NCBI RefSeq assembly: GCF_004099695.1
Contig: NZ_SCHL01000017.1
Span: 1-64,000 of the forward strand
Origin: Methanosarcina sp. MSH10X1
GTDB lineage: Archaea > Halobacteriota > Methanosarcinia > Methanosarcinales > Methanosarcinaceae
DNA length: 64,000 nucleotides
Direction: 5' to 3'
Positions 18,143 through 37,458 of the stretch are shown here, in pieces. The first letter of the stretch is position 1; each line of letters begins with the position of its first letter. Position numbers and translations under genes: made by a program. The notes beneath the pieces are model-generated. The model saw only the letters and a program-made list of their open reading frames with translations, did not search any database and was not told the origin of the DNA.

Positions 18143-18153
18143 AAATATATATA
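18143..18153 (+). promoter_or_regulatory. TATA box of the glycosyltransferase/GH130 operon
   Basis: aaatatatata after a g-rich stretch (ttttgggt). It lies about 170 bases before the first start codon, so a leader of roughly 150 nt is expected. Confidence 0.5.
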
Positions 18154-18323
18154 GCTTTGATTCAAAACCCTAATAAACTTTATCAATACCGATTCTTTGC
18201 GTTAGTTTGCGGGTAATATTGTGTTAAAGGGGAATACTGGTATGTAATTGAGAAACTATATACAGAAAAAAAACGAAGAATAGAATTTAATGTGCTCAGT
18301 TGTTTTAGCTTGGGGGGTATTAA

Positions 18324-20717: not shown

Positions 20718-20726
20718 GAGGGTAAT

Positions 20727-21761
20727 ATGATCTGGAAAGACCATGGGGAGTTGTTTGTTAGATATAACAGGAATCCTATACTGACTGTTGAGGATTGGCC
20801 ATACAGGGCTCATTCGGTGTTTAACCCCGCGGCTGCGATAGTTGATGGCAAAACCCTGTTACTGGTGCGTGTTGAAGACCACCGGGGCTTTTCTCACTTT
20901 ACAATAGCAACAAGTGAGAATGGGATTGATGGCTGGGAAATTGATACTGAACCCACCTTTTCTCCGGATCCTGCAAACTATCCTGAAGAAATATACGGTA
21001 TTGAAGACCCACGCATAACTTATATAGATGAGCTGGAAAAATGGGCTGTGGCATATACGGCATTTTCGGATTCGGGTCCCTTAACGGCACTTGCCTTTAC
21101 GAAAGAATTCCGTAATTTTGATCGGGTAGGTGCTACTTTGCCTCCTGAAAACAAAGATGCTGCAGTTTTTCCTGTAAGATTTAATGGCAGGTGGGCAATG
21201 CTGCACAGGCCTGTATCTTTAATAAGCGGTGCAAAGGCAAATATCTGGATTTCCTTTTCCCCGGATATGAAATATTGGGGAGAGCATAATGTGCTTCTGT
21301 ACGCTAGGGAAGGGGGATGGTGGGACGCGAACAAAATCGGATTATCCCCACAGCCAATCCGTGTGCCTGACGGATGGCTGATCATGTACCACGGAGTACG
21401 CCAGACAACGGCTAAAGCAAGTTACAGGCTTGGGCTGGCTCTCCTTGATCTTGACGATCCCACAAAAGTGCTTCACAGGTCGGAAGGCTGGGTTTTCGGG
21501 CCGCGTGAAATGTATGAACGAAGCGGAGATGTCAACGATGTTGTTTTCCCCTGCGGGTGGGTTATGGTGGACGATGAAATCCGTATTTACTATGGAAGTG
21601 CCGATACCTCCGTATCGCTGGCCACTGCAAAAGTCCGCGATGTCATGAGATATATTCACTCATGCCCTGAAAAGCAGTGCCCGGATGAGTATTGCAGGTG
21701 GTTTGAGGAGGATATAGAAAGCTCAACTGATCCGAAAAGAGGGTATTCAAAATTAAAATAA
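20727..21761 (+). CDS. GH130-family glycoside phosphorylase/hydrolase-like protein
   Basis: A 344-residue five-bladed beta-propeller protein of the GH130 type (PF04041). Family-like motifs include RYNRNPIL near the start, VFNPAAAI, RVEDHRGFSH, YGIEDPRITY (the conserved catalytic Asp region), and KIGLSPQPIRVPDGWLIMYH. GH130 enzymes are phosphorylases or hydrolases acting on beta-mannosides. Which of the two this is depends on phosphate-binding residues that cannot be settled by eye. It lies between two glycosyltransferase genes (9 bp after the first, about 130 bp before the second), so it may trim, recycle or condense the same glycan. The start ATG 20727 follows a gagaggg site. Confidence 0.86.
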   Translation: MIWKDHGELFVRYNRNPILTVEDWPYRAHSVFNPAAAIVDGKTLLLVRVEDHRGFSHFTIATSENGIDGWEIDTEPTFSPDPANYPEEIYGIEDPRITYIDELEKWAVAYTAFSDSGPLTALAFTKEFRNFDRVGATLPPENKDAAVFPVRFNGRWAMLHRPVSLISGAKANIWISFSPDMKYWGEHNVLLYAREGGWWDANKIGLSPQPIRVPDGWLIMYHGVRQTTAKASYRLGLALLDLDDPTKVLHRSEGWVFGPREMYERSGDVNDVVFPCGWVMVDDEIRIYYGSADTSVSLATAKVRDVMRYIHSCPEKQCPDEYCRWFEEDIESSTDPKRGYSKLK

Positions 21762-21894
21762 GAAGTAAAGTTAAAGGAAAATGGATACAGGTTAAAAAAG
21801 CCAGAAGTTAAAGGTTCAGGTAAAAAGCCTGAGATTAAAAGTTAAGACTCAAAAAGCCGAAAATTGAGTGTGGGGATGATTTGGGGGTATTAGT

Positions 21895-23247
21895 ATAAGA
21901 ATTGCGATGTTATCTCCGATTGCCTGGAGTACGCCACCTAAAAAATATGGTCCCTGGGAATCTATAGTATCTTTATTAACCGAAGGCCTGGTAAAAAGGG
22001 GTATTGACGTTACATTATTTGCAACAGCGGATTCCCATACGGCAGCGAAACTTCATGCTGTGGCTCCGAGACCCTATGAAGAAGATAAGGATATGATCGT
22101 GAAGGTTTATGAAGGCATGCACATATCAGAAGTCTTCGAGAAAGCAAATGAATTCGATATAATTCATAACCATTACGATTATCTTCCTCTGACCTACAGT
22201 GCGCTTGTAGATACGCCTGTCGTAACAACAATCCACGGCATTTCTTCAAGGAAAATTTTGCCTGTTTATAAGAAGTACAATAACAGAACTTTTTATGTAT
22301 CGATAAGTGATGCTTACAGGTGCCGCGATCTTGATTATATAGCAACGGTCCGGCATGGGATCGACATAGAAAGTTTCCATTTCAACGAGAACCCGCAGGA
22401 CTATCTTCTCTTTTTATCGCGCCTGCATAAAGACAAGGGCGTAAGGGAAGCGATAGAAGTTGCAAGAAAGACCGGCAGAAAACTCAGAATAGCCGGCTTC
22501 GTTGCGGATCAGGCTTATTTTGAAAAAGAAGTCCAGCCCTTTATAGATAATGAGCAGATTATTTTCGAAGGGCATGTTGATCCTGAATATAAGAAAGAAC
22601 TCCTGTCGAATGCATCTGCTCTGCTGCACATGATCAATTATGATGAGGCTTTCGGGATTGGTATCGTTGAGGCTATGGCAAGCGGCACGCCGGTAATTGC
22701 AATGAACAGGGGTTCAATGCCTGAGCTCATTCGGGATGGGGAAACCGGGTTTTTGATCAATAGCGTTGATGAAGCTGCAGAAGCTGTGCAAAAGCTCGGC
22801 TCCGTATCCCGCAAGGCCTGCAGGGAAAGTGTTGAAAAGCGTTTTTCTGTTGACAGAATGGTGGATGACTATATCAAAGTGTATGAGACCATTCTTGAAA
22901 AGCGCAAACGTGAGGACAAAAGACCGTGGGGTTTTTACGAAGTGCTTATGGAGAAACCAGGATATAAAGTCAAAAGCCTTACTGTCCTCCCGCAGAGTGA
23001 AATTTCACTCCAGCGCCATGCTCATAGAAGTGAGCACTGGCACATAGTCAGTGGAGAGGGGCTTGTAACTAAAAACGGGAGTAAGATCAGGGTGCTTCCC
23101 GGGGATTCGGTTGATCTTCCGGTAAACGGGATCCATCGGATTACAAATATAGGCGGTCAGAATCTTGTCTTCATTGAGGTTTCGCGCGGAGACTACCTGG
23201 GAGAAGACGATATCGAAAGGCTTGAAGATAGATACGGGAGGACGTGA
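21895..23247 (+). CDS. GT4 glycosyltransferase fused to a cupin domain
   Basis: About 450 residues. Residues 1-about 335 are a GT4 glycosyltransferase (SPIAWSTPPKKYGPWE at the N-terminus, LLFLSRLHKDKGVREAIEVA, EAFGIGIVEAMASGTPVIAM). Residues about 340-445 are a cupin like the C-terminal domain of type II mannose-6-phosphate isomerase (RPWGFYEVL, then HAHRSEHWHIVSGEG). The fusion could couple mannose-phosphate handling to transfer. The family N-terminus is usually MRIAMLSP; here that Met position is an ATA codon (21895), seven bases after a ggggg site, while the first ATG (21907) lies 19 bases away. I therefore place the start tentatively at ATA. Using ATG would drop four residues from the first beta strand. 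Confidence 0.85.
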   Translation: MRIAMLSPIAWSTPPKKYGPWESIVSLLTEGLVKRGIDVTLFATADSHTAAKLHAVAPRPYEEDKDMIVKVYEGMHISEVFEKANEFDIIHNHYDYLPLTYSALVDTPVVTTIHGISSRKILPVYKKYNNRTFYVSISDAYRCRDLDYIATVRHGIDIESFHFNENPQDYLLFLSRLHKDKGVREAIEVARKTGRKLRIAGFVADQAYFEKEVQPFIDNEQIIFEGHVDPEYKKELLSNASALLHMINYDEAFGIGIVEAMASGTPVIAMNRGSMPELIRDGETGFLINSVDEAAEAVQKLGSVSRKACRESVEKRFSVDRMVDDYIKVYETILEKRKREDKRPWGFYEVLMEKPGYKVKSLTVLPQSEISLQRHAHRSEHWHIVSGEGLVTKNGSKIRVLPGDSVDLPVNGIHRITNIGGQNLVFIEVSRGDYLGEDDIERLEDRYGRT

Positions 23248-23504
23248 GCAGAACTGCATGAGCAGAAATCTGCATAAGGATTGGAGCGCTGTGCAGGTTC
23301 TCACAGACTTATAATACTACAGGCTTAAGCAGATATAATTTTCCAGTTTATGAAACAGAATTACAATTCTCCAATTTATGATTCTGCTTTAGCCTGTCTG
23401 AGTCATAAGCCCTGCCCGATTTCTCTTTACCATTTTTTGTTTCAGTTTCTTGCCTTACTGTTCTTTTTACTGTTTTCGTTCATAAATTTTTTAAATCTTT
23501 ATTT

Positions 23505-23849
23505 TTAATCCGGGCATTCTGAAGTGTTATAGGAATCCCTTACCTGAGTCGCCACTTCCTCACCCAGTCTCTCGGATACGTTCTGGATAAAAAGCTCGAT
23601 GTACTCGAAGGGTACGCAGCCGAGGCTTTCCTCTCCTGACAGGATAAGCCTGACAAGGTATTCCAGGTCATATCTGGATAGCAGCTTTATCCTCCTCAGG
23701 AAATCCTGAGCATCTTTTGCATAATGATTTGCCAGGGGAGGGAGTATGGAACGATAAGCCATTCCTGAGCCTGAACAGAGATACCCCTCGCACTCCGGGG
23801 CAACGGTTTTCAGAATCCCGATATCCGTTTCTGAGAGTAGTCTTGCCAT
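23505..23849 (-). CDS. Hypothetical protein of about 114 residues
   Basis: A small soluble, mainly helical protein (MARLLSETDIGILKTVAPEC..., YDLEYLVRLILSGEESLG, EYIELFIQNVSERLGEEV). I do not recognise the family. An upstream ATG at 23861 would add four residues, but ggtgat precedes ATG 23849 at suitable spacing. It converges with the glycosyltransferase-cupin gene. The conserved-looking pattern of charged helices supports a real gene. Confidence 0.6.
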   Translation of the reverse strand: MARLLSETDIGILKTVAPECEGYLCSGSGMAYRSILPPLANHYAKDAQDFLRRIKLLSRYDLEYLVRLILSGEESLGCVPFEYIELFIQNVSERLGEEVATQVRDSYNTSECPD

Positions 23850-23861
23850 GATGATCACCAT

Positions 23862-24389
23862 TGATAAAAGTATGCAGCCTTTGCTTCCGAGATAGTGAAT
23901 ATATACGATTTACATCTCAGAAATAATAAACGTATGCAATTAAGGTACAAGGATGGATGCGGTCTGGGATATGAGAACTGGATATAAGGTTAAGCGGTTA
24001 AGATAAGCATGCAAGATATGCATATAAGAAGCATGTAAAAAGTATGTATAAGAGAATCAGTTATGAGTCAAAGAATCAGTTATGAGTCAAAGAGTCATTT
24101 ATGAGTCAAGTTCTGTTTTCAGCAAGCGTGAAGTGTAAAGTCTGAGGATTGCCGAAGAATTTGAAGCTATTCTTCGGATTTCTCTCGTTTTACAATACAG
24201 GCTTGTTTTATGTATTTGGAATTTCACTTTATGTCCGGGTCTTTTTATGCTTCACACGGGCTTTTTTATGTTTCATAAGGGCTTTTTATGCTTCATAAGG
24301 GCTTTTTTACTTTACAAGGGTTTTTTATGCTTCATAAGGGCTTTTTTACTTTACAAGGGTTTTTATGCTTCATAATTCACTCCGTGCCT
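23862..24389. other. Intergenic region with tandem repeats
   Basis: The left half shows repeated purine-rich phrases (gagtcaaagaatcagttat) near 24050-24110. The right end is the gggcttttttatgcttcata array listed separately. No gene is supported. Confidence 0.5.
24237..24372. repeat. Seven imperfect 19-21-bp tandem repeats
   Basis: Units such as gggcttttttatgcttcata alternate with gggcttttttactttacaa. Each carries a six- or seven-T run after ggg(c/t). The array lies directly behind the stop of the minus-strand beta-lactamase-fold gene. Confidence 0.8.
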
Positions 24390-25145
24390 TCATAACTCAA
24401 GTTTCATCAGGTCTTCGGCAAGAATCACCTCTCCTTCAAAGTACCTTTTAAGGCGGTTTACGGTTTCCTTTTCATGCCCCTGCATTTCCGGGTAAAAATG
24501 TGTAAGGCAGATGCTTCCTATTTCTATACCTGACTCTTCCAGGAGGCCTGCGAGTGTGCCTGGTGTGGTATGGTTTGTGACTTTCATGCCTGAGGGAAAG
24601 GAGCACTCATGAATCAGGAGATCGGCGTCGGCTGCAAGCCCCATTATCTCCCTGGAGGGCTCGGTGTCTCCGGAGTAAACGAATTCCCCATCCTCTCCGG
24701 TCACGCGGTAAGCCAGAGTCGGAACGCTGTGCGCGGCTGCCATGCAGCTGATCTCACAGTCGAAACCGTCAGGAGTGAATTCTTTTCCCGGGGAGAGCTC
24801 TATAACATCCACATCCACTTCTTCCTGAAGATATTCATAAGCGTCAAGCACTTTCGAAAACCATTCTTCGGTTCCTTCAGGCCCGTATACCTTCATACTG
24901 GTACTTCCGCGGAGCCAGTTTGCCTTGATCAGGGGAAGCAGGTCAGCCACGTGGTCAAGATGAAGGTGTGAGAGCAATACCGTATCTACTTCGGTATGGG
25001 AAACCCCAGCCTCAGGAAACCTGCTCAATACACCGCTTCCGCAGTCGATTAGTAGCGGCTTTTCCTCAAGCCTGACAAGCACTCCTGACTGTACCCGATT
25101 CCTCTGAGGGATCGCAACTCCAGTGCCAAGAAATGTAATTTCCAT
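24390..25145 (-). CDS. Metallo-beta-lactamase-fold hydrolase, RNase Z-like
   Basis: A 251-residue protein with the full MBL metal motifs: HLHLDH near residue 60, AAHSVPTLAYRV near residue 138, YSGDTEPS near residue 157 and THFYPEM near residue 216. The N-terminus MEITFLGTGVAIPQRNR is typical of the RNase Z/ElaC and arylsulfatase-like branch. True tRNase Z has a longer exosite arm that I do not see, so a general phosphodiesterase-like hydrolase is safer. It reads away from tRNA-Leu. The plus-strand frame across it is a shadow. Confidence 0.82.
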   Translation of the reverse strand: MEITFLGTGVAIPQRNRVQSGVLVRLEEKPLLIDCGSGVLSRFPEAGVSHTEVDTVLLSHLHLDHVADLLPLIKANWLRGSTSMKVYGPEGTEEWFSKVLDAYEYLQEEVDVDVIELSPGKEFTPDGFDCEISCMAAAHSVPTLAYRVTGEDGEFVYSGDTEPSREIMGLAADADLLIHECSFPSGMKVTNHTTPGTLAGLLEESGIEIGSICLTHFYPEMQGHEKETVNRLKRYFEGEVILAEDLMKLEL

Positions 25146-25242
25146 GGGTTAAAGAATAAACTTTAAATAATTTAACTTTATTTAAAGCATGTCCGCATAA
25201 GGAATCTTTGCGGCTCAAAAAAATCCTGCTTTTTTTCAAAGC

Positions 25243-25327
25243 GCGAGGGTTGCCCAGCCCGGTCAAAGGCGCCGGACTTAAGATCCGGTATCGAAGGATT
25301 TCGTGGGTTCGAATCCCACCCCTCGCA
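25243..25327 (+). tRNA. tRNA-Leu (anticodon TAA)
   Basis: An 85-nt type II tRNA. Acceptor gcgaggg (25243-25249) pairs with ccctcgc (25320-25326), discriminator A. Anticodon stem ccgga/tccgg surrounds loop cttaaga, giving anticodon TAA. There is a long variable arm before the T-arm gggttcgaatccc. CCA is not encoded. A damaged copy of its 3' two-thirds lies 7.8 kb downstream in the same orientation. Confidence 0.95.
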
Positions 25328-25627
25328 TTAGATTTTTGGGTAATAGGTAAGTCAAATTTTTTGTACGCTAGTGCAAGAGTTATGCACAACCGATTATTTT
25401 AGAAAGTTGTTTTAACCAAAATAAATTACTATATTTCTATAATATAGGTCAAATAAAAAATCCTCTTTTTGCACTTTTTGTATCAAATTAATGAATAGCT
25501 AATTTTGCCAAGAGGATGAAAACATTCAAATGATTCAATTTAATCGAGAATGTTAATAGTGTAAAGAGTTGCTTTCAGTTAACCTTATTTTCGTTTCTGA
25601 ATTCTTCGATTGCATTTTCTATCAACT

Positions 25628-28339
25628 CTATGATCTCAGTGCATTCACATTCTCTAAGCTCGGGTTTTTTATTATCTCTAAAATTTCCTCAAATACATCT
25701 ACTGTCAATCTTGACATATAAGAATACTTTTTCTTAAGACGTTTTAAACTGTCTACTAATTGCCTTAATTCATGATACTCTATTAGATTATGTTTCAAAG
25801 ACAGGATTGCTAATCTATGAAATGATTCAAAGACCTCTTCTACCATCCAATATAAGCATTCTTCACTTTCCGGCTTATCGCTGTCGTCTGAATATTTGAA
25901 GTCGTAGACTAGAAAATTTGCTCTGGAGAAAAGGAACGGTAGAAAAATATTATTCAACGAAAATTTGTTCCGAAGATGAATTGATATAATTCCAAAATTT
26001 TCGAAACATTTAATTATCATAGTAAAAGGTTTTAGCGTTTCGAAGGTTGGTGAATTTTGCGCATAATTTAGTATAGGATCAGCAAGTTTTCCTAATGAAT
26101 TGGGTATTTCATAATATGCCTTCTTAGATTTTTCAATAACTCCTATTTTAAAGATTTTTAAATTAGATGCAAAGTGTTTGCCTTCTATATCATTAAGGTG
26201 AAATGCCTTTATATTTTTGTCTTTTACATTATTTATTAACAGCGCATTGTCTTCATCATTTCTATCGGTTATTTCTAATGAAAAAGAAAGATTTGAATTA
26301 TTTTTATCCTCAACTGTTATTGTCCACCAACTGGTAAAATATATCTGCGAGTCTTCCTCATCTAGATGTGCATTATACTCTTCATTTAGAAACTCAATTA
26401 TTTTACTTTTATCTATATCCCATTCAAACAAATAACCAAAATGAAGTATTCCGATTGAATATAAAGTTTTAATTATGTCTTCGACTAAGGGAAAAGTTTT
26501 TTCTTTATTTATGGCTTTCTGTCCAATATTTTCTATATTCTGACAAATAATTCTGGATTGGGTGCCGCTTCTAAGAATTCTGTCAATAATTTCTAGCGAT
26601 TTAAGGCATTGTTTTGGTGCATCTAAAAGGTTATTTTCAACGGCGTTTTCCCCTATAGAAGCTATATAAGCTGAAATATCTATTATATCAATGAGCACTT
26701 TTTGATGTAGTTTTTCCAATGAATTCTTTGCTCTGGGTGCATATTTATAGTTTGATTTAATATGGTCATAATATTCAACGACCTGATATTGTGTTTCGTC
26801 GGAAAGTTCTTTTGAATGGCAATCTATTTTGAATGCTAAGTTTTCTAAGCACTTCACTATTTGCACAGTTGAATATTCAATTTCAGTTCCTCTTTTTGTG
26901 GATTCTTTACCGATGATCCATAGGTTTTTCAGAATGTGGGATACACTATGTATAAGATTATTATCAATTGCTCTTTCTCCAATATAAGTGAGAGTTTTAA
27001 TAACTTCATCTAACGCATTTTTTGAGTCTGAGTTAATTGCAGCGATTCCTATATCACCTAAAAAATATGATAACTCGGATATCGAACCCTCGAGTTTTTC
27101 AAAAATTTTTATTTGCTCATTTATTTTGATTTCATTTCGCCTGATAAAAGTATTTTTTGCAATTTTTTGAATCTGCTTTATTAAATATATCGATAATTCG
27201 GCAAATTCTTCTTCTTTTATTTTTATAATTGATTTAAAAGCTTCTTTTAAATAATACTCAGACAAAAAAGTAGTATATAAAAAATCTTTTTGCGTTACTT
27301 TTTCTTCTACCTCGGGCGTACCGATGGCGTTGTGTAATGTGATCAAAACTTTTGTTTTTAATTTTGAAACAAAATCAGTATTTAAATCTGATTCATTTAC
27401 GAGATAAGTGCATTCTCGACCAATGAAGCAACATTCTATCAGTATCATTTTGATTAATCTAAGATCATTATCTCTCAAAGCTAACTTCCAAATTTCTAAA
27501 ATACGATTGAATACATGTCCTGATATTCGTTCTTCATCAGTTGGGTTTTTTATAAGAATAATAAAAAGGCTATTTGTTACTTCTCCAAGAGCATATCTTG
27601 CGGTAGCGTAATCATATCGCTTAATTGAAGTCTGTATGATGTCAATTATCGGTAAAAAAGGATCCTTCTCATCATCGTCTAGACTTATAATAGTCCTATT
27701 AATTCTAGGCTCGTCTTCGAAAATTTTACTTTTGTATTCGCCTATTTCATATAAAGAGCTTGATAAATTTTTTATGTCAATTTTTTCAGATAAAACGTCA
27801 ATTATTGAGCTTGGTTTCATCATTTTTAAGATATATGGAATATAGGCAACGAGTGAAATATATGCGGAAACTGAGAGTAAAAGAGCTAGAGTATAGAAGA
27901 TTTCTAAATACTTGATACCCAGGTATAATACAGTATAAAACACTTCTAAATATTTGATATCGAAGTACGGATAATCATTAATTGAGGCATTTATTAACCT
28001 GATGACAATAAGAGAAAAAATTATTGAAGAGCCATTAAAGAATATAAGCGCTTGCAGTCTCAAGTCATTCTTAAAAATATCAACAACTCTTGCTGAATAG
28101 GTTGACGCAGAATACTGTATCACTAATAAGCTCAGACTTATAACGATGGCTACAATAGAAGCACTAATTTGAACAATAGTTGTCAACAAATATAATGCAC
28201 TATCTGGATCTGTAAATATAAAACAAGAAAACCCCGCATATATAAGGCAAAATAAAGTGAAAAAAAAGATAAGTAGTGATAACCAAATTTCTTTTGTTTG
28301 CTGAAAAAAATAATGAATTACTTTTCTAAACTTGTTCAT
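25628..28339 (-). CDS. Large membrane-anchored alpha-solenoid protein
   Basis: A 903-residue protein. The N-terminal about 180 residues hold four or five hydrophobic helices (WLSLLIFFFTLFCLIYAGF, IVAIVISLSLLVIQYSAS), with the segment SLLVIQYSASTYSARVVDIF resembling DUF2254-type membrane proteins. A tandem repeat of about 14 residues occurs within the membrane part (KYLEVFYTVLYL / KYLEIFYTLALL). The remainder is a long, Lys/Glu/Ile-rich helical solenoid. The function is unknown; membrane anchor plus large cytoplasmic solenoid in a mobile context would suit a defence or stress effector, but that is speculation. In-frame A_AAA_AAC at 25670-25664 precedes the TAG, and the -1 frame stays open to 25575, giving a 921-residue alternative product. 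The gene is more AT-rich than its neighbours. Confidence 0.7.
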   Translation of the reverse strand: MNKFRKVIHYFFQQTKEIWLSLLIFFFTLFCLIYAGFSCFIFTDPDSALYLLTTIVQISASIVAIVISLSLLVIQYSASTYSARVVDIFKNDLRLQALIFFNGSSIIFSLIVIRLINASINDYPYFDIKYLEVFYTVLYLGIKYLEIFYTLALLLSVSAYISLVAYIPYILKMMKPSSIIDVLSEKIDIKNLSSSLYEIGEYKSKIFEDEPRINRTIISLDDDEKDPFLPIIDIIQTSIKRYDYATARYALGEVTNSLFIILIKNPTDEERISGHVFNRILEIWKLALRDNDLRLIKMILIECCFIGRECTYLVNESDLNTDFVSKLKTKVLITLHNAIGTPEVEEKVTQKDFLYTTFLSEYYLKEAFKSIIKIKEEEFAELSIYLIKQIQKIAKNTFIRRNEIKINEQIKIFEKLEGSISELSYFLGDIGIAAINSDSKNALDEVIKTLTYIGERAIDNNLIHSVSHILKNLWIIGKESTKRGTEIEYSTVQIVKCLENLAFKIDCHSKELSDETQYQVVEYYDHIKSNYKYAPRAKNSLEKLHQKVLIDIIDISAYIASIGENAVENNLLDAPKQCLKSLEIIDRILRSGTQSRIICQNIENIGQKAINKEKTFPLVEDIIKTLYSIGILHFGYLFEWDIDKSKIIEFLNEEYNAHLDEEDSQIYFTSWWTITVEDKNNSNLSFSLEITDRNDEDNALLINNVKDKNIKAFHLNDIEGKHFASNLKIFKIGVIEKSKKAYYEIPNSLGKLADPILNYAQNSPTFETLKPFTMIIKCFENFGIISIHLRNKFSLNNIFLPFLFSRANFLVYDFKYSDDSDKPESEECLYWMVEEVFESFHRLAILSLKHNLIEYHELRQLVDSLKRLKKKYSYMSRLTVDVFEEILEIIKNPSLENVNALRS

Positions 28340-28438
28340 TGTATTGCTACTGAGATATTTTCACTTATAAACATTGTTTTTTGTAGCTGATTTTCATATC
28401 TTAATAATGATAGTGCTTGCCGCCTTTTGCTATTTTAC

Positions 28439-28515
28439 TGTAAAATTTACAATTTCTTCTGGTACTGTTTTATAATTTTACTATAAATTTTACATTTCTA
28501 CAATTTACATGTAAA
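28439..28515. promoter_or_regulatory. Cluster of TTTACA/TGTAAA inverted repeats
   Basis: tgtaaaatttaca (28439-28451, 6-1-6 palindrome), tataaattttaca, and the perfect palindrome tttacatgtaaa (28504-28515) lie 100-175 bases upstream of the large minus-strand gene. They could be operators for a repressor; AT richness makes chance palindromes more likely than usual. Confidence 0.3.
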
Positions 28516-28517
28516 AC

Positions 28518-29009
28518 TTACACATTTTTACTTTGACTTGAAACCAGAGCTTCCCACTTATTCACTCTTTCCAGAACATTAGCATTAAGAGTAAACGGCT
28601 TATCTGATTTTGCATTCTGCTTCATATAATGCAAAGTACCTTTAGAAAACCCTAGTTTCTTCCAGTCAACATAAGAAATATTAAGAATCTTCTGCCTTAT
28701 GTCATATGAATCAATTCTTTCAATTTCATACTCAGGCTTAACAAAATCCAGTTTCTCCTTTTTGCTTATGAGGTATTGGGCTAATCCTCTTACCTTCAGA
28801 AAGATAATATAACTCCATGTGCTTTCTTTACCCTGAAAACTTACTTTTTTATTCAGCATATTGGAGTACTCATTAACAACCTTCCTGGCTCCTGTAGGTT
28901 TTAGCCCGAGATTGTAATTCTCAGTCCTTATGAAATCCTTAGTTTCCATAGCTTCGCTTTCAATCAGACTAATAGCTGCAAAACAAGAAACCTGAAAGGT
29001 TCCTGAAGG
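28518..29009 (-). pseudogene. C-terminal fragment of a Cas1-family integrase (CRISPR Cas1 or casposase)
   Basis: The frame is open from an in-frame TGA (29010-29012) to the stop at 28518; the first ATG is at 28949 (143 residues). The pattern SLIESEAMETKDFIRTENY, then LGLKPTGARKVVNEYSNML, matches the Cas1 C-terminal region where helices follow the catalytic His/Asp part. It ends with a helix-turn-helix-like tail (WKKLGFSKGTLHYMKQNA). An HTH tail is described for casposase Cas1 proteins; I also recall similar tails in Methanosarcina CRISPR Cas1, so both stay open. The N-terminal two thirds, with the catalytic Glu, are missing, so it cannot be an active integrase. No CRISPR repeats, cas2 or other cas genes are nearby. 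Confidence 0.55.
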
Positions 29010-29211
29010 TCACAGGAATCATTCAATCCTTGAGCTGTCCCACCTTCAGATAAATACGAAAAGAAAAATGTAAGTGTAATGAAAGAATAATTCTCATATA
29101 TATACAATTTTCCTGGGAATGAGATAATTTTTGACATCAAATTCAGAGTTTAATTGGATAATTCTATAGAAAGTATCCGGAGCTGAAAAATAAGATCTGA
29201 GGTTTTGCACA

Positions 29212-29606
29212 TGAAATATTTGATGATCAATGGAAAAAAAGAAGAGATCCCTCCTTTTCCGCATCATAAGGCTTTCATCTACAGGAGTAAGCAGTTCTTT
29301 TTTGCTAAAGGAATGTCAACTCGTTTAACAATGGGCAATTTCATTACTCTGAAAGAAGCTCTACCGTTGATTTAAAAATAAATATTTCATTCCAAAAGGG
29401 CTCTTCTGGTAGACCCGACCAGTAATTGTAATTTGAAGTGTAAAGGGTGCTGGTCTAAGGATTATGAGAGTGGTCATGGCATTTCGCATGAAAAACTTGA
29501 TGCTGCGATTTTCCCGCCTGACGAAATCAAAATCAACCCTGCCTTATGCATATTTGCTAGTTTTCTGTTAATACCGGGTTCCTATCCTGAAAGCGCATAT
29601 ATCTAG
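29212..29606 (+). pseudogene. Degraded and truncated radical SAM gene
   Basis: ATG 29212, preceded by gagg nine bases upstream, opens MKYLMINGKKEEIPPFPHH... for 54 codons to a TAA. After two close stops and at least one frame change the sequence continues as LLVDPTSNCNLKCKGCWSKD, which contains the radical SAM cluster motif CxxxCxxC, and runs to a TAG at 29604. The SAM-binding and C-terminal parts of a normal 300-350-residue enzyme are absent. The gene is therefore truncated as well as interrupted. The intact relatives I recall are uncharacterised radical SAM proteins of methanogens and clostridia. Confidence 0.65.
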
Positions 29607-29850
29607 AAGCTAATCTGGAAGAAACCAAAAATTTGATACTGATATAAAATTCCAAACAATTATATTCATTTTGTCTAATATCATATTGTGATATATATTA
29701 ACATATTATAATTTAGGTATTATATTAATAATAAATAATAATATACCCGGATTGTATTGATAAATTTATTTTAAAACTCTTTTAAAACTCAAACCTTGTT
29801 CCTGGAGTTTTAACTATTTAAAACGGTTGAGTTGTGACGAGGGGACAGAT

Positions 29851-31743
29851 ATGCTTGAAAACCTGCGAAAAGTAGAGCAACAGAGAAAAGCTTCTCAAAG
29901 GTATTATAGCCGGCAGAAAGCTGCTGAAGCGGGGGGACCGGGCGAGAGATTAAGACATGAAATCACCAGGTCCTTGAGGGAGGCACAATCTATAGAGAAG
30001 CGCCTGATCTTTCTTGAACCAGGGGATGGCATGGCACTGGAGAGGATCAGGGGAAAGAGCGATCTCGTCGGTATCTCCTATCTGGAGCTTGGACTGCTTG
30101 CTGCCAGACCTGTCTGCAGGATCCAGATCGTGAATACCTTTGGCAGGTCAGAGGGTTACGGTACGGGTTTTCTTGTCGGCCCAAATCTGCTGCTGACGAA
30201 TAACCATATCCTCGATACAGCAGAACTGGCAAAGAAGAGTTTTGCAGAGTTTGAATTCGAACAGGATATAAAAGGTCGACGGAAGACATCCAGGTCCTTC
30301 GACCTCCGGCCCGACGAGATCTTCGTCACTGATCCGGACCTGGACTTCACACTGGTATCCGTAGCCCCGGTTGCCACAGAAGGGACAGAGCTTAGCGATT
30401 ACGGATTTTTGCATCTTGTGGAAGACACCGGCAAGATCTTGACCGGCGAACACATTTCCATAATTCAGCATCCCGATGGCGGTTTCAAGCATTGCTGCCT
30501 GCGGGAAAACGAAGTTGTAGATATCTTCGGCAACTGGCTGTACTATCTGACCGACACTCAGCCTGCAGCTTCAGGCTCACCCGTATTCAACGATCAGTGG
30601 CTGGTTGTAAGCCTGCAACACTCAGGAGTGCCGATGAAAGATGCACAGGGGAACATCCTTAAAACAGATGGTCAGCCTTATCGTGAAGGCATAGATAATG
30701 CCAGCACTCTAGCCTGGGTAGCCAATGAGAGCGTGCGCATCAGCTGCATCATCCAGGCACTGGAGTCGCGCAGCGAGAACGAGCCGATGGCAGTGGAAGC
30801 TCTGTGCAGGCTTCGAAGCCATGTCACTGGTCCGGCCGGACCTGCAGTCATAACCGCCCCAGAGTCAATCCACGGAGCAGCAATGAAGCTGGGAGAATTG
30901 CCCGCGGAACACTACCTCCTGGCGGATGGCTACAACCCCGATTTCCTGGGTTCTCTGCATCCTGTGCCTCTTCCAAAGCTGGCAGATAATCTTCAGTCCA
31001 GAGTCGCAAAGCTCAAAGACGGGAGAGAGGTTCTCACCTACCTGCATTTCTCGATTGTGATGAATGCGGATAGAAGGCTGGCCTTCTACACCGCAGTCAA
31101 TATTGACGGCAAGAAGCTGGAGAACATCAAACGCGGCCGCGACAGATGGTACTTTGATCCGCGTCTCGACCAGAAATTTCAAGCCGGACCCAAATTGTAT
31201 GAAGGCAATCCACTTGACCGCGGACATCTGGTTCGCCGGCTGGATCCCTGCTGGGGATCAAATGCCAGGGAAGCGGGAGAGGATACATTCCATTTTACAA
31301 ACTGCTCACCTCAGCACGAGCGCCTCAACCAGCGTGATTGGCTCGAAGTGGAAGATTACATACTGAAGACCGCAGATAATACCAATGAGCGGATAGCGGT
31401 ATTCACCGGTCCGGTCTTTCGTGAAGACGATATGATTTACCGCAATGAGTACCTCCTGCCTGCCGATTTCTGGAAGGTGGTGGCATTCATCAATAAGAAC
31501 GGCAAGCTCAGCGCCACTGCCTACCTGCGCACGCAGAAGAATTATCTGGAGAGCTTGAAGTTCTTCGACGATGAGTTCAAGACCTGGCAAGTACCGGTAG
31601 CGCAGGTTGAGGCGCTGACAGGCCTGTCATTCGGCTTGCCTGCAGATGCCGATCCTATGGCGCGGGCAGCAACCGGAAAAGATCTGGAAAGCCAGAGAAG
31701 AAATATCCGAAGGATTCGCTCTGCTGCGGATATAATGCTCTGA
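29851..31743 (+). CDS. Trypsin-like serine protease fused to DNA/RNA non-specific endonuclease
   Basis: About 630 residues. After a charged N-terminal helix (to about residue 75) comes a trypsin-like fold: GTGFLVGPNLLLTNNHIL with His119, DPDLDFTLVSV with Asp165, and AASGSPVFND with Ser241, the full triad. A linker follows, then a NUC1-type (PF01223) endonuclease from about residue 380, with the DRGH catalytic motif at 456-459 (LDRGHLVRRLDP) and the metal-ligand Asn in FTNCSPQHERLNQ. There is no signal peptide, so it should act in the cytoplasm or be released conditionally. Protease-nuclease fusions are known among bacterial conflict systems; a defence or suicide role is inferred. G+C content and codon choice (cgc, ctg, gcg) are higher than its neighbours, suggesting transfer from bacteria. 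ATG 29851 has gagggg at good spacing; TTG 29827 is an alternative. Confidence 0.85.
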   Translation: MLENLRKVEQQRKASQRYYSRQKAAEAGGPGERLRHEITRSLREAQSIEKRLIFLEPGDGMALERIRGKSDLVGISYLELGLLAARPVCRIQIVNTFGRSEGYGTGFLVGPNLLLTNNHILDTAELAKKSFAEFEFEQDIKGRRKTSRSFDLRPDEIFVTDPDLDFTLVSVAPVATEGTELSDYGFLHLVEDTGKILTGEHISIIQHPDGGFKHCCLRENEVVDIFGNWLYYLTDTQPAASGSPVFNDQWLVVSLQHSGVPMKDAQGNILKTDGQPYREGIDNASTLAWVANESVRISCIIQALESRSENEPMAVEALCRLRSHVTGPAGPAVITAPESIHGAAMKLGELPAEHYLLADGYNPDFLGSLHPVPLPKLADNLQSRVAKLKDGREVLTYLHFSIVMNADRRLAFYTAVNIDGKKLENIKRGRDRWYFDPRLDQKFQAGPKLYEGNPLDRGHLVRRLDPCWGSNAREAGEDTFHFTNCSPQHERLNQRDWLEVEDYILKTADNTNERIAVFTGPVFREDDMIYRNEYLLPADFWKVVAFINKNGKLSATAYLRTQKNYLESLKFFDDEFKTWQVPVAQVEALTGLSFGLPADADPMARAATGKDLESQRRNIRRIRSAADIML

Positions 31744-31947
31744 TACGATCGCTTGATGGTTGTTGCCTCGGATCAGACAATGAAACACAATCTGTCTGAC
31801 AGACTAAAAGGGCTAAGCCGACAGCCATTTTTTGTGTGTCAGTTTCATTTTGCGTGCAAGCTCAATGACTGGTAGCTTCATATCTTCCAGAAATCAAAGT
31901 TATGCTGGCAATTTACTGGCAACGATGACTGAATTCCAGAATCGGAT

Positions 31948-32103
31948 TCAATCCCTGGAAAACATTACTTTTATAGCTTTTTCTAATTCCTCGTCAGACA
32001 TATCATTTACATGCGTAACAAGCAAACAGTGGTGACCGAATTTTCCCCACCCACAGAGAGCTTCCCCCAGAGTTCGTCTACTTATTCCTGCGTCTCGCAG
32101 CAT
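31948..32103 (-). CDS. Small 51-residue protein of unknown function
   Basis: ATG 32103 opens 51 codons (MLRDAGISRRTLGEALCGWG..., ending DMSDEELEKAIKVMFSRD) to TGA 31948. It reads as a short helical protein with a GISRRTLGEAL segment like a helix-turn-helix, then a Cys/His cluster (GHHCLLVTHV). The upstream frame is open for eight more codons without a canonical start; aggttg lies nine bases before the ATG. It could be a complete small gene or the 3' end of a lost longer one. Confidence 0.45.
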   Translation of the reverse strand: MLRDAGISRRTLGEALCGWGKFGHHCLLVTHVNDMSDEELEKAIKVMFSRD

Positions 32104-32670
32104 AGCTTTTTCAACCTGTAAAATTTTAAATTAACTTTCCAATTTTATACGGGACGCAAAGATAATTTTAAAGTATGCATTACTGCAACAGATCAACAGC
32201 ACCTTCTTTTTAATAAATTGCCCTATAAAGAAAAACAGGTTCTGTTGCAAAAGATGATAAATAAAAAAACAGAATGTCTCTCAGCTAACGTCCGGATTTA
32301 AATATTATTTTGAATAACTTATTCAGGCTTTGTTGAAATTCTCAGAATTAACTGATCTCGATTTATTTGAACTGAATAATATGATCCTTTTCACACATTT
32401 AGATTTCAGCTTCTTGATGCTGCTTTAGACATGTTTTTTACAGGGCCGGATTTTCTTCGCCATCGTTGCAAAAATCTTTTCATAAGATCTATCTATATAG
32501 AAAAGATAAAGAAGAACAGGTTATTTTTTCAGAAAAGTCAATAATAAATCGGAATTTATGAATGAATACTTATCTTAGCCTCAAACATGTCGGCCAATTT
32601 TTAGAAAAATTAAACAGATTTTAAATAATTTATATTTTGCTAATATATGATATATAAAACTGGAGAGTAG
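32104..32670. other. Intergenic region within the tRNA-Leu island
   Basis: AT-rich with no supported gene; several minus-strand fragments have no start or binding site. Confidence 0.45.
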
Positions 32671-32739
32671 TTATTCCTCTCCCATTTCTTTTCTAAATTC
32701 TATGTAATCTCTTTCCACTTCTTCGAGTTCGTATTCCAT
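32671..32739 (-). CDS. 22-residue acidic microprotein
   Basis: ATG 32739 is preceded by a strong gggggat site with correct spacing and opens 22 codons, MEYELEEVERDYIEFRKEMG plus EE, then TAA. The peptide is a single acidic helix. The strong binding site is the main reason to believe it. Confidence 0.45.
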   Translation of the reverse strand: MEYELEEVERDYIEFRKEMGEE

Positions 32740-32760
32740 TTTTATCCCCCAATTTTAAAT

Positions 32761-32802
32761 TCTTCATGTAGTATTCTTCATGTAGTATTCTTCATGTAGT
32801 AT
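32761..32802. repeat. Three exact tandem copies of a 14-bp unit
   Basis: tcttcatgtagtat occurs three times without spacing between the two tiny minus-strand genes. It contains no start site and probably arose by slippage. Confidence 0.85.
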
Positions 32803-32804
32803 TC

Positions 32805-32945
32805 TTATCCGAAAATCATTATTGAATCAAGTCTCGCGGTGCCTGCTTTTGTCCAGTAGCTGCAAATACTACAATACTGGGTCTCGCCATCCGAGTGCAT
32901 TTTAAGACTAGCCTGGCATTTTGGACATGTTTTTAGATGTTTCAT
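32805..32945 (-). CDS. 46-residue zinc-ribbon protein
   Basis: ATG 32945 has gaggga at six-base spacing. The product MKHLKTCPKCQASLKM... carries CPKC and, 14 residues later, CSIC: a compact four-Cys zinc ribbon, followed by a short tail rich in Ala and Ile. An upstream in-frame ATG at 32960 is possible but lacks a site. Such mini zinc fingers are common among methanogen small proteins. It may bind nucleic acid or a partner protein, and it sits in tandem with the acidic microprotein downstream, so the two could be co-translated. Confidence 0.6.
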   Translation of the reverse strand: MKHLKTCPKCQASLKMHSDGETQYCSICSYWTKAGTARLDSIMIFG

Positions 32946-33129
32946 AATTAAATCCCTCATAATTTGGAAAAGAGTCAGTAATCTCTGGAACTTTTTGTTT
33001 TAATATATCCTAACTCAAGAACATAGTAATATCATAAAATATATTAAATAAATGATATCAAAATTTGTATTCAAGCGAAAAATTGTTTGACGTAAAAAAT
33101 TTCAGGTTCATTATAGAGTGAAACTTACC

Positions 33130-33181
33130 CGAAATTAAGATCCGGTATTAAAAGGTTTTCGGGTTCGAACCCCACACGCAC
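33130..33181 (+). pseudogene. Decayed 3' part of tRNA-Leu(TAA), attachment-site-like
   Basis: Aligned with tRNA-Leu positions 25272-25327. It keeps ttaagatccggtat exactly (anticodon loop, 3' anticodon stem and start of the variable arm), then a shortened variable arm and gggttcgaacccc. The 5' half of the tRNA is absent and the anticodon stem is mismatched (ccgaa against tccgg), so it cannot be functional. It is in direct orientation with the intact gene, as expected for an attR-type remnant. Confidence 0.65.
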
Positions 33182-33559
33182 AAATATTTGATTCCATTTA
33201 ACTCTAATTTTTCGTTAAGGATCCTGGTTGTATTGCCGGTGGAGATATTGCACACATAGAATTTTTCCTTCGGACAGCAAATCTTGCCATATGCGGTGCT
33301 GATACTGGCTTTCTCCCATATTATTGTACTATCGTAGACAGATGTATAAATTATGGTACTTATACAGGCAGAATGAGATCATAAAAAGTATACAGGCAGA
33401 ATGAGATCATAAAAAGTATACAGACAGAATGAGATCATAAAGGGAATACGGACAAAAATAAACAAAAATAAAAAGTATTTAATAAAAAGAATATATAGAC
33501 CTGGAGCTTAGATCTGGCTCCATTTTCTGAACTGTTTTATCTTATTTATGTGCATTACC
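33182..33559. other. Intergenic region after tRNA remnant
   Basis: It holds the 28-bp triple repeat and the 3' flank of the PKD gene. No gene is seen. Confidence 0.5.
33361..33444. repeat. Three tandem copies of a 28-bp unit
   Basis: Units start at 33361, 33389 and 33417, beginning tatacaggcagaatgagat and ending with an a-run. The third copy differs at a few bases. There are no spacers, so this is not a CRISPR array. Confidence 0.85.
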
Positions 33560-35413
33560 TTAATTCCGTCTTAATAAAAACACCACCGATAGCATTAGTA
33601 CCAGGTCCGGTACTCCAAACCCGGACACGACATTGCGGGTCTCTGGAGCAGGCTCAGGCTGAATATCTGGAATATCGGGAGCTTCTTCTACCTGAATAGG
33701 AAGATTAAAAGCGTAATCTTCTGCATCCTGTTTGTTCTCGCCAAAATAATAAACTACCCTTCCGTTAACATTAAAGTTTCCAGCTTGATTGGCTACGATC
33801 TTCACTTCGATATCTCTACCCGTTCCGGGTTCCAGATAATATTTTGCCATATACTGTCCGGCACCGGACTCAGCAAATCCTGTAGAAGAAACGCTCATTC
33901 CCGAAGGCGGGATAATGATAACCTGAACGTGCATGGCAGGTTTTGTTATAAGGTTTACTACTGAAAGCTTGAGAAGAACTTCTTCACCATTTACTACGTT
34001 TGTTTTCTCACCATAGAGACTGACACTTGAAGAGGGTAGAGCGGATCTTTCTGTTGATATGTTTTCACCTTGCTCTGTAAATGGGCTACTATTATAATTA
34101 TTTACATTGGTTATTTGATAGTTATTATTTACAGTAGTGGTTTGACGGTTATCATTCACAGAGTTCGTCTGGTGATTATTATTTACAGAATCTGTCTGTG
34201 TGTCAGCAGGCTGTTCTTTTACACTGGTTAATACATAATAAGGCCTGGATATTGTATTACTTCCAGCATCATTACTTACTGTCAATTTAATAGAGTAACT
34301 ACCAGCTTCAACATATGTGTGAACTGGATTCTGATTGGTCGATGTTTCACCATCTCCAAAGTCCCAGAGCCAGGTAGCCGGTGAACCTGTACTGCAATCG
34401 ATAAATGATACAGTCGCCGGTACGCTGAGCGATTTGCCGGATGTAATTGCCTGCTGTACCTGCGTGGAATAGAAATTCGCGATTGGTGCCTTTAGTGCTG
34501 AAGATGCCTTTATATAGCCGGTAATACTTTCCGTATCACTACCAGCATCGTTAGTTACCGTTAAAGTAACTGTATACGTACCAGGACTGGTAAAGGTATG
34601 AGTAGCTGTTTTTGCATCCGTTGAATGAGTACCGTCTCCGAAATTCCAGTACCATGATGCAGGTGCCCCTCCGGTACCGGTATCAGCGAATCTAACTTCT
34701 AATGGGACTTTTCCGCTTGTTACGTCGGCAGTAAAGGAAGCTGCTGGTTTTTGCGCTGGCACGGGCGCTGCCGGATCCAGAACAGTGATATAATCAGGTT
34801 CCGTCACTGTATAGCTACCTGCGGAATTGGTTACAACCAGGCTAACAGTGTAAACGCCAGGCTTTTTGAATGTGTGAACAGCTGTAACAGGGTGGCGAGA
34901 GTTCCAATCGTTGCTCGTCTCGGGCTCGAAAATCCAGTAGTATGAGGTTGGGTTACCAGTTGTTTCACTTTTAAACTGAACACCCAATGGGGCATATCCT
35001 GCTGTTACGTCAGATGTAAATGTAGCAGTCGGCTTTTCCGGGTGCTCAGAGACCTCGGGCGCTTCCGGCGTTGATAATACCGTTATATAATCCGTCTTAC
35101 TTACCGTGTCGCTGCCTGCTCCATTAGTTACCGTCAGGGAGACAGTATATACACCTGGCTTTGTAAATGTGTGAGTTGCATTCATGGCATGTTTAGAGTA
35201 AATCCCGTCTCCAGTGTCCCAATTCCAGGAAGCTGGTACTCCTCCGGTGCCGGTATCAGTAAATCGCACGACTAAAGGCGCAGGACCGGAAGTTATATCG
35301 GCAGTAAATGCAGCTACAGGCTTTATTGAATCTGATAATGCCTCATCCGTTGCAGATGCAGTTGATATAAAAAATAAAAAAACTAAAATTAATAAGAAAA
35401 CTTTGCTACTCAA
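33560..35413 (-). CDS. Secreted surface protein with four PKD domains
   Basis: A 617-residue protein. It has a signal peptide (VFLLILVFLFFISTASA), then four PKD beta-sandwich repeats at about residues 31-112, 125-212, 222-303 and 312-395, each with the WxFGDG-type core (WNWDTGDGIYS, YYWIFEPE, WYWNFGDGTHS, WLWDFGDGETS) and HTFTKPGVYTVSL-like strands. The second repeat has a degenerate core. An Asn-rich low-complexity linker follows, then a beta-rich domain and a C-terminal hydrophobic anchor ending in RRN (FGVPDLVLMLSVVFLL), which resembles a CTERM sorting tail. It is likely an S-layer-associated or adhesive protein. The start is TTG 35413 with a ggggagat site. Confidence 0.88.
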   Translation of the reverse strand: MSSKVFLLILVFLFFISTASATDEALSDSIKPVAAFTADITSGPAPLVVRFTDTGTGGVPASWNWDTGDGIYSKHAMNATHTFTKPGVYTVSLTVTNGAGSDTVSKTDYITVLSTPEAPEVSEHPEKPTATFTSDVTAGYAPLGVQFKSETTGNPTSYYWIFEPETSNDWNSRHPVTAVHTFKKPGVYTVSLVVTNSAGSYTVTEPDYITVLDPAAPVPAQKPAASFTADVTSGKVPLEVRFADTGTGGAPASWYWNFGDGTHSTDAKTATHTFTSPGTYTVTLTVTNDAGSDTESITGYIKASSALKAPIANFYSTQVQQAITSGKSLSVPATVSFIDCSTGSPATWLWDFGDGETSTNQNPVHTYVEAGSYSIKLTVSNDAGSNTISRPYYVLTSVKEQPADTQTDSVNNNHQTNSVNDNRQTTTVNNNYQITNVNNYNSSPFTEQGENISTERSALPSSSVSLYGEKTNVVNGEEVLLKLSVVNLITKPAMHVQVIIIPPSGMSVSSTGFAESGAGQYMAKYYLEPGTGRDIEVKIVANQAGNFNVNGRVVYYFGENKQDAEDYAFNLPIQVEEAPDIPDIQPEPAPETRNVVSGFGVPDLVLMLSVVFLLRRN

Positions 35414-35711
35414 TTATCTCCCCTTTCCCAGGCAGGCTTACATTTCAAAGTCCGGAAGTAACCCTGATGACAATCTGTGTTCTCAGGCATAATACTGACA
35501 ATTTGTATTCTCAGGCATAATACTGACAATAGCCTGTACTGACAATGTCCTATTTTTCAGCTCACAATTTTTAGTTCACAAGAGAAATCTTATCAGTAAT
35601 ACATATAAAACACAAAGCATTTAAAATTTTTTGAATGTTTACCTTAAATGAATACTTCTGAGGAAACATCTGATACCTTAATGAGTATTATTTCATGCAA
35701 GATAATGCAGG

Positions 35712-36023
35712 ATAAAAATCATCCGGATTCTCGAAAAGAACTCTCCTATTGATGAGATAACTATAGTTGAAAATGGGAATGCCAGGGAATTCAGTGACTG
35801 GGATCAGGAAATTTTTGAGGAGTGCTAGAACGAACTTAAAATGGAAATCGGAACGAATAAAAGCTATTGGATAACTTCTATATTTACATACGGGTATGAA
35901 CCGATGCCTGCACTTAGCGCAATTGCCTTTAAAATGCTTGAGGGCGCGGGTACATCGATTCTATCCCGATATCTTAAAGTGTTTTACTACCAGAATCTTA
36001 GAGAAAACAGGCTTATAAAATGA
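35712..36023 (+). pseudogene. Interrupted small frame with in-frame TAG before the APC permease
   Basis: One reading frame runs from a stop at 35703 to TGA 36021-36023, with a single internal TAG at 35826-35828. Both sides look protein-like (SPIDEITIVENGNAREFSDW before it; SYWITSIFTYGYEPMPALSA after it). There is no ATG, GTG or TTG before the TAG; the first candidate is ATA 35712. ATG 35841 after the TAG gives 60 residues but has no ribosome binding site nearby. The end overlaps the permease start as atga, a typical coupling signal. In Methanosarcina TAG can encode pyrrolysine, so read-through is possible. A decayed gene is the simpler reading. The family is not recognised. Confidence 0.35.
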
Positions 36024-37366
36024 CCGGGCTCCAAAAAACAATCACCTTAAAGAGAGGTATAGGGCTTGCAATCTGCATGCTCATAGGTACAGGAATTCTT
36101 GCATTGCCAGGCCTGGCTCTAAGTGTGGGAAACGTCCATGAAGCAATTCTTGGATGGTTCCTTATAACTTTTGTTACCATTCCGAGAATTCAGATCTGCT
36201 CAAGGCTTGGCCTGAGATTCCCTTCGACCGCCGGGCTTGCCGGCTACGCAGAAGAAGCAGTCGGGCCCTGGGGCAGGTATTCGGTCTCTTATCTTGTAAG
36301 CGGCTCTTACCTTTTTGGGCTTCCTGCTATTGCTTTTATTGGCAGTGAATATATGCGGCAGTTTTTTAATCTCTCCGAATTAGGAGGAGCCCTTTGTGCC
36401 ATCCTTCTTGTAAGCCTGATGTTTATTTCAAACCTGTTCGGGATAAGAGCCATCACTCTGATCAACTACCTGGCGCTGACCGTACTTTTTCTGCTTATAG
36501 GACTGATTATTGTCTTTAATATCGATTTTATCGATTCCGGGCTGAGGATTGCCGGAGAAGCTCTGAGTAACCGCGGAAATGCGGACCCAAACATAGTATG
36601 GAATGTTACAGCCCTGCTTTTCTGGGCTTTTCTTGGCTGGGAGAATCTTTCTTTTTTCCTTGGAGAGATGAAGGATCCCGAAAAAAACGTTCCCCGGCTA
36701 TACTGGCTGAGCTTTGTTCTGGTTGCTGCTATCTATGTTTTACTTGCCCTGATAAGCGTAGGAGCCAGTGCTACGGGAGTTTCCCTTAAAGGAGCTGCCG
36801 GGCTCTCCAGTCTGGTTCTTCTTATACCGGGCGGAAATTTTCTGATATGGCTCATAATAATAGTGCTTGCAGCAAATGCCTGTTCCTGGAACTTTACGGC
36901 AAGCCGCCTGCTCTATGCATCTGGCAGGACAGATGTTTTTCCTGCCGTATTCGGGAAGCTCTCAAAAAGGAATATTCCTCTATCCAGCCTTGTTATTCTA
37001 TATGCCCTATCAGTTTCACTTATTACAGGATGCTATTTCTTCAAGGTTCCTGTTACCGCTATGATGCTGCTAGTAAACCAGAACTTTATTTTCCTTTGCG
37101 GCTTCATTATAATTGCTTACTGGAAAACCGAAACTGGATGGCAGAAGTGGATCTTTTCGGTTCTTTCACTTCTGTCTTTGAGCTTTCTTGCTTCAGGATT
37201 TACCTGGAAGGTTATATATCCGCTCTTTCTGATGGGGCTTGGTTATTTCAGGTTTATCGTAAAAAAGGAAGATAAGTTGTCTGTGCAGTCAGTAGATTCA
37301 CAGTCGAGGCAGGAACTCGCAGCCTTTGAAGACTCCCAGGAACTCTCCCAGCCTGCAAAGCAGTAG
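36020..37366 (+). CDS. APC-superfamily amino acid permease
   Basis: A 448-residue integral membrane protein with about 12 helices. The first helix carries the APC unwound motif (GIGLAICMLIGTGILALPG), followed by SVGNVHEAILGWFL and a loop with FPSTAGLAGYAEEAVGP. Helix 6 contains LLFWAFLGWENLSFFLGEMKDPEKN in the expected position. The family exchanges or imports amino acids or polyamines with H+ or Na+; the closest type I can suggest is the YjeH-like branch. The substrate is not known. The start overlaps the stop of the small interrupted frame upstream (atga). Confidence 0.88.
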   Translation: MTGLQKTITLKRGIGLAICMLIGTGILALPGLALSVGNVHEAILGWFLITFVTIPRIQICSRLGLRFPSTAGLAGYAEEAVGPWGRYSVSYLVSGSYLFGLPAIAFIGSEYMRQFFNLSELGGALCAILLVSLMFISNLFGIRAITLINYLALTVLFLLIGLIIVFNIDFIDSGLRIAGEALSNRGNADPNIVWNVTALLFWAFLGWENLSFFLGEMKDPEKNVPRLYWLSFVLVAAIYVLLALISVGASATGVSLKGAAGLSSLVLLIPGGNFLIWLIIIVLAANACSWNFTASRLLYASGRTDVFPAVFGKLSKRNIPLSSLVILYALSVSLITGCYFFKVPVTAMMLLVNQNFIFLCGFIIIAYWKTETGWQKWIFSVLSLLSLSFLASGFTWKVIYPLFLMGLGYFRFIVKKEDKLSVQSVDSQSRQELAAFEDSQELSQPAKQ

Positions 37367-37458
37367 GAGCAATCCGCTGGCAGTAGTTCCGGGCGCCAGG
37401 ATGATATACATAACCTTGTAAATAAGGTTAAATAAGAGTTTAATCAGGGGAGATATAT

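Follow-up and report, generated by a model that had tools for sequence, protein, structure and literature searches.

The DNA analysed here, called the window below, is a 64,000-nt stretch of Methanosarcina sp. MSH10X1 (contig NZ_SCHL01000017.1, positions 1 to 64,000). It carries, in this order, a tRNA-Leu gene, a target-like 14-mer, a casposon terminus, the gene for a 903-aa DUF2254-like protein, remnants of ~43-bp repeats and a truncated casposase gene, referred to as the stub (Table 1). The 14-mer CGCATTAGATTTTT lies directly 3' of the tRNA-Leu gene, its first bases being the last bases of the tRNA, and the terminus begins right after it with GGGTAATAGGTAAGTCAAATTTTTTGTACGC. Such a terminus pattern is expected 0.01 times by chance in the window. 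Alignment with both ends of a casposon from the congeneric genome G006 (L065) extended beyond the terminus itself. Array calling on the window did not pick up the repeat remnant.

Table 1. Features of the casposon remnant and its surroundings (positions in the window).
Feature	Position	Strand	Remarks
tRNA-Leu (taa), insertion target	25243..25327	+	
CGCATTAGATTTTT, 14-base target-site position at tRNA 3' end	25324..25337	+	
Casposon terminus and subterminal sequence	25338..25440	+	homologous to both L065 casposon ends and one G012 end
DUF2254-like membrane protein, probable casposon cargo	25628..28339	-	intact, 903 aa, DUF2254 E 3.2e-11
~43-bp repeat remnant	28420..28517	-	~2 degenerate units, ~98 bases
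Casposase stub ORF	28518..28949	-	143 aa; casposase residues 267-406 plus 3 extra codons
Casposase continuation, other frame	28950..29015	-	~residues 246-266, includes DLQEPFRFLV
Degenerate tRNA-Leu 3' part	33129..33185	+	~7.8 kb from intact gene

The Cas1/casposase-related C-terminal fragment placed at 28518-29009 by the initial annotation is real. The Methanosarcina mazei casposase 6opm_A was matched with E 1.4e-80 (query 1-140, chain 283-422), and identity to the 406-aa casposases of congeneric genomes was 91-92%, which excludes a chance match. Alignment to full-length casposases indicated that the ORF comprises the tail of the catalytic domain and the complete helix-turn-helix (HTH) domain (residues 342-406, wholly inside the ORF). 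Its three extra codons result from a 1-base loss ahead of the old stop, and a 4-base loss just upstream of the ORF start breaks the frame. Casposase homology runs on past that start in another frame and stops near 29015, in keeping with the upper limit of 29009 proposed earlier. The catalytic residues, named E162, H232 and E247 in PMC6977970 (163, 233 and 248 in the 406-aa query), are not encoded in the ORF; of the three codons, that of E247 alone survives, in a frame other than that of the stub. A working integrase is not expected from the stub because the active site is missing.

A profile search with Pfam Cas1 (PF01867) gave no match in the stub, and the NCBIfam Cas1 model matched its tail weakly (E 0.0047; 16 bits, cut-off 71.7). 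PF01867 did match a full-length relative (E 5.8e-67). The Cas1 models miss the stub or match it weakly because the remaining part lies almost wholly beyond the Cas1 core. The suggestion that the region after the core and an HTH tail had been kept, with the catalytic part gone, was thus borne out. The best matches were casposases, not members of an unrelated family. As judged from sequence homology, the stub is a fragment of a family-2 casposase and a non-working member of that family. Full-length 406-aa copies occur in other genomes alongside short casposase relatives, which vary in their truncation point rather than forming a complete short homologue, and many of which carry stops.

Private changes across 140 codons of the stub numbered 0 synonymous and 7 nonsynonymous, or 0 and 6 without codon 140, which was dropped in a recount as its change was produced by the end indel. 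In a comparison of low power, with few changes and counts that are not tree-based, five full-length casposases showed 12 synonymous and 5 nonsynonymous changes (Fisher p 0.0046 against the stub either way), and eight other fragments were intermediate, at 12 and 21 with one stop in addition (p 0.036 versus the full-length copies). Within that low power, the private-change counts gave no indication of purifying selection on the stub ORF. They point to a loss of constraint, as in a pseudogene. The 143 codons are nonetheless stop-free, which counts against reading the stub as a relic. This, the complete HTH, the adjoining 43-bp repeat remnants and the numerous C-terminal fragments across the family, some of them stop-free, would suit a domesticated DNA-binding HTH protein, for example a casposon repressor that binds the neighbouring repeats. 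Truncated transposases elsewhere act as repressors of incoming elements. We consider domestication improbable: the private-substitution test disfavours it, the changes fitting neutral drift, unlike those of full-length copies, and the start residues of the fragments vary widely, with many stops. In the experiments of PMC6977970 concerning the isolated HTH domain, the domain was purified and an interaction with DNA could not be confirmed. The stub is most likely without any function.

Searches of the 64,000-nt window found no casposase N-terminus, no PolB match and no far terminus. Four terminus patterns returned only the known terminus at 25338, and a loose search gave 3 matches against 3.46 expected, one being the known terminus. 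The failure to find the far terminus leaves the insertion delimited on one side only. A second copy of the 14-base site was not detected above chance in the window. By eye, no HNH nuclease was recognised among ORFs of at least 50 aa at 25000-33000 or at least 100 aa at 33000-46000; at 16000-25000 ORFs were listed from 120 aa, and an HNH-sized gene could be missed there. Searching the source genome with a full-length casposase revealed no intact copy, only two further, poorer casposase fragments on contig C17. PolB gave a single weak match in that genome, outside the window (E 3.8e-4, 40% identity, aa 831-881). The degenerate tRNA-Leu piece is possibly the far border of an inserted region, perhaps of another integrated element.

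Two further observations concern the DNA beyond the stub. A 638-aa fusion of a trypsin-like peptidase (Pfam E 3.5e-17) and a DNA/RNA non-specific endonuclease (9.3e-54) is encoded at 29827-31743 and is possibly a defence gene. Between it and the stub lies a frame-broken piece (29205-29520) which by eye resembles the start of a radical-SAM protein and includes a CNLKCKGCW motif.

Intact relatives were located by searching 30 genomes of the genus Methanosarcina with a full-length casposase. Eight full-length casposases, one of them the query itself, were present in 4 genomes (G002, G006, G007 and G029) at 74-100% identity to the query. The casposons of these genomes (L065-L069 and L115) belong to the same casposase family as the stub and, unlike the window, have full-length casposases together with PolB, split or frame-broken in some. 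Full-length casposase, full-length PolB and a pair of inward-facing termini occur together in L066 and L069, two casposons of the stub's subfamily. The G006 casposon L065, of the same subfamily, has paired termini and a PolB split by insertion. Its terminus at 1637 is followed by cargo and an inserted transposase gene, ~43-bp repeats (~5793-5932), cas1 (-) and a 294-aa protein (-), then on the opposite strand the genes for a 212-aa protein, an HNH-like protein (by eye) and PolB; the second terminus ends at 14705, beside tRNA-Leu. The tRNA-Leu here adjoins the PolB side and not the cas1-3' side, so the orientation of a casposon relative to the tRNA is not fixed. In L067 and L115 tRNA-Leu is on the cas1-3' side, as in the window.

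Immediately after the casposase gene, M. mazei-like casposons have a ~43-bp tandem array (L065 5793-5932; L066 11928-12014; L067 5448-5574 and 15729-15868, after both casposase copies) that is possibly a binding site. L069 has short partial repeats only, and ~43-bp repeats were not reported for the more distant casposons L068 and L115. Their presence in L065-L067 and not in L068 or L115 led us to treat the repeats as a subfamily trait and to reject them as a conserved casposon element.

Casposons, their tRNA-Leu target, CGCA motif and 14-base target duplications, and tandem insertions are already known from PMC10359463, PMC6977970 and PMC9939771, the CGCA motif from the first two. The stub aligns end to end with residues 267-406 of the MetMaz-C1 casposase (6opm), and the window shares with MetMaz-C1 a tRNA-Leu 3' target, the 14-base target-site length and a GGGnnATAGGTA-type terminus, as these are given in PMC10359463 and PMC6977970. 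In contrast to MetMaz-C1, the window remnant is without the catalytic part, has a frameshift, has one terminus found and PolB not found, and holds an intact DUF2254-like gene between terminus and stub. MetBur-C3 is decayed like the window remnant and is described in PMC9939771 as probably inactive from amber mutations; it retains its genes, with stops, whereas the window remnant is without its core.

We conclude that the locus is very probably a decayed family-2 casposon at tRNA-Leu(UAA) whose core was deleted, leaving a non-functional casposase 3' stub. A casposon whose cargo gene lay between the casposase 3' end and the terminus next to the tRNA would have inserted at the 3' end of the tRNA gene, and a later deletion would have taken the first ~246 casposase codons together with PolB and the far terminus. 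What stayed would be the terminus beside the tRNA, the cargo gene (presumably that of the DUF2254-like protein), some of the 43-bp repeats and the stub. The stub may then have acquired the 4-base frameshift, the 1-base loss at its end and its amino-acid changes. This order of events presumes a single casposon and a single deletion. The earlier description of an orphan fragment therefore holds as to the fragment and not as to the orphan, since the stub is part of a larger casposon remnant reaching 25338.

The orthologous site in congeneric genomes was located via the gene next to tRNA-Leu. In G012 (L112) a deleted casposon of 3.8 kb occupies the site. Both its termini are present, the 14-base duplication CGCATATCTAATGT can be read in the sequence directly, and its casposase C-terminal fragment is oriented as in the window. 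The tRNA-side terminus of the window resembles the distal end of the G012 element, not its tRNA-side end, so terminus and stub could derive from two successive casposons at the same tRNA. In G002 genes for a full-length casposase and PolB lie downstream of that tRNA; a terminus of the window type was not found in that stretch. By eye, terminus-like traces follow the tRNA in G001, G015 and G017, no recognisable terminus follows it in G018, and no casposon gene was recognised at the G014 site among ORFs of at least 110 aa. A short element with inverted ends is also present twice at the G012 locus (L112 ~4960-5150 and 6800-6960).

The G012 element, having both termini and the duplication at the same tRNA but no core, raises a second alternative, that the window remnant is a non-autonomous, internally deleted casposon movable by a casposase in trans. 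Mini-casposons flanked by termini and target sites do move in M. mazei, as described in PMC10359463. We regard mobility in trans as very improbable for the window, where one terminus only was found, in a source genome without an intact casposase. In G012 itself one of the short inverted-end elements lies, by eye, at the break of the casposase gene, so that the deletion may postdate insertion. A remnant of a CRISPR-Cas cas1 gene, for which only the weak tail matches to Cas1 models speak, can be dismissed: it is refuted by the casposase match, the ~90% identity to full-length casposases, an HTH tail described as a C-terminal extension of family-2 casposases absent from CRISPR Cas1 (PMC6977970 and PMC9939771), the lack of a meaningful match of the stub to the CRISPR Cas1 encoded in the same genome, and the lack of a CRISPR-like array in the window. 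The array search covered direct repeats of at least 24 bases within 120 bases and saw only tandem repeats, and the sole PF01867 match of the genome is a CRISPR cas1 on contig C48. The initial annotation had likewise reported no CRISPR array or cas neighbours and favoured a casposase origin over CRISPR Cas1, which the HTH tail, the casposase identity and the terminus beside tRNA-Leu support.

On the decayed-casposon reading the stub is an ordinary relic, a further decayed example of an element type that is already known. Of more interest is the pattern of retained ends. From the search of the 30 genomes we set aside the eight full-length copies, one 42% near-full copy in G020 and all matches below 40% identity, which include CRISPR Cas1 proteins and some weak fragments. 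There remained 128 fragments in 26 genomes, 111 of them with their midpoint in the C-terminal half; at 70% identity or more this held for 53 of 59. A strict recount (at least 70% identity, at least 50 aa, merged by place) was made on account of the 90% identity of residues 351-400 between two casposase subfamilies, which makes short matches in that stretch more likely, and of the similar HTH that casposon PolB carries according to PMC9939771. It gave 38 loci in 16 of the 30 genomes: 31 held the last third only, 4 the first third only, one both and two neither. Residues 1-50 were present in none of the 38 and part of the C-terminal third in 32. Since genomes can share one and the same decayed copy, the loci are not all independent, and the binomial p (3e-6) gives no more than an indication. 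Between the two subfamilies identity over the first 150 residues is 74-84%, so N-terminal pieces should be readily found. Detection bias was rejected as the cause of the C-terminal excess, given this N-terminal conservation and the persistence of the excess in the strict recount.

PolB fragments in the 30 genomes were likewise 3'-only, none starting before residue 475 when split or frame-broken near-full copies were excluded. The two genes, cas1 and polB, are divergently transcribed, so what remains after loss of the core is the 3' end of each. A simple symmetric internal deletion is not enough, however, since PolB 3' fragments are fewer than casposase stubs. The surplus of cas1 stubs may arise because the cas1-side cargo is retained, often along with a tRNA.

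Fifteen fragment loci were scanned for a terminus (the window, L112, L123-L126, L129-L134 and L161-L163), a non-random choice made by hand, mostly from among the better-preserved fragments. Nine of them (the window, L112, L124, L130-L134 and L161) had a terminus with no more than one mismatch, and in all nine one faced inward on the casposase-3' side. Only L112 among them had one on the other side too; in the seven besides L112 and the window, ~6 to 9 kb of the 5' side was fetched, so a farther terminus would be missed. L161 gave one three-mismatch match on the other side. L129 had one two-mismatch match, on the 3' side, L162 three-mismatch matches only (5 against 1.18 expected), and L123, L125, L126 and L163 none in the scan. 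Exact terminus patterns, the only ones applied to L127 and L128, gave no match. A tRNA adjoined the 3'-side terminus in five of the nine: Leu(taa) in the window, L112 and L124, Met(cat) in L132 and Leu(cag) in L161. None was found at the terminus in the other four.

Between terminus and stub, seven of the nine loci carried an ORF above 400 aa that was not transposase-like (903, 585, 463, 426, 406, 461 and 861 aa). L124 had a 241-aa ORF and a transposase-like ORF, and L112 only a 130-aa restriction-endonuclease piece. The in-between genes differ among loci by eye; family libraries were searched for the window gene and the L112 piece. In a search of 88 genomes, homologues matching most of the 903-aa protein were found in G020, G021, G022, G024 and G028 (47-53% identity), with partial homologues in G008 and G010 (44-47%). 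Those of G021 (L161), G024 (~0.2 kb) and G028 (~3.7 kb) lie near casposase fragments, in an orientation or on a side that differs from the window; no casposase fragment was listed near those of G020, G022, G008 and G010. This distribution favours, but does not prove, the view that the DUF2254-like gene travels with casposons. PADLOC gave no match for the protein at E 0.01.

We tentatively propose, as a possibility short of an even chance, that Methanosarcina casposons are recurrently 'cored', losing the transposition module and keeping one terminus and the cas1-3'-side cargo. Coring could arise because the host benefits from the cargo and cannot afford to lose an adjacent tRNA gene, where one is present. 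On this view the 3' stubs of casposases would be markers of casposon-delivered gene islands, which would include undescribed defence-type genes, perhaps that of the DUF2254-like protein. If confirmed, the pattern would offer a simple tag (casposase 3' stub, terminus and often a tRNA) for methanogen genes brought by casposons, and would suggest a role for casposons in delivering genes, beyond their kinship with the CRISPR ancestor. A limited literature search found no paper announcing systematic casposase 3' stubs, and we make no claim that the pattern is unreported. For annotation, short 'Cas1' calls in this family may be casposase tails.

Two loci from the survey deserve separate mention. At L123 (G006:C1:1873801-1877942) several short casposase pieces, mostly C-terminal, lie within ~4 kb on one strand; neither terminus nor tRNA was found there, and the locus resembles a graveyard of successive casposons. 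In G029, a reverse-transcriptase-like ORF of at least 442 aa, recognised by eye (L004 2101-3429, minus strand), reaches the end of the locus and sits directly downstream of a full-length casposase gene, in the cargo position.
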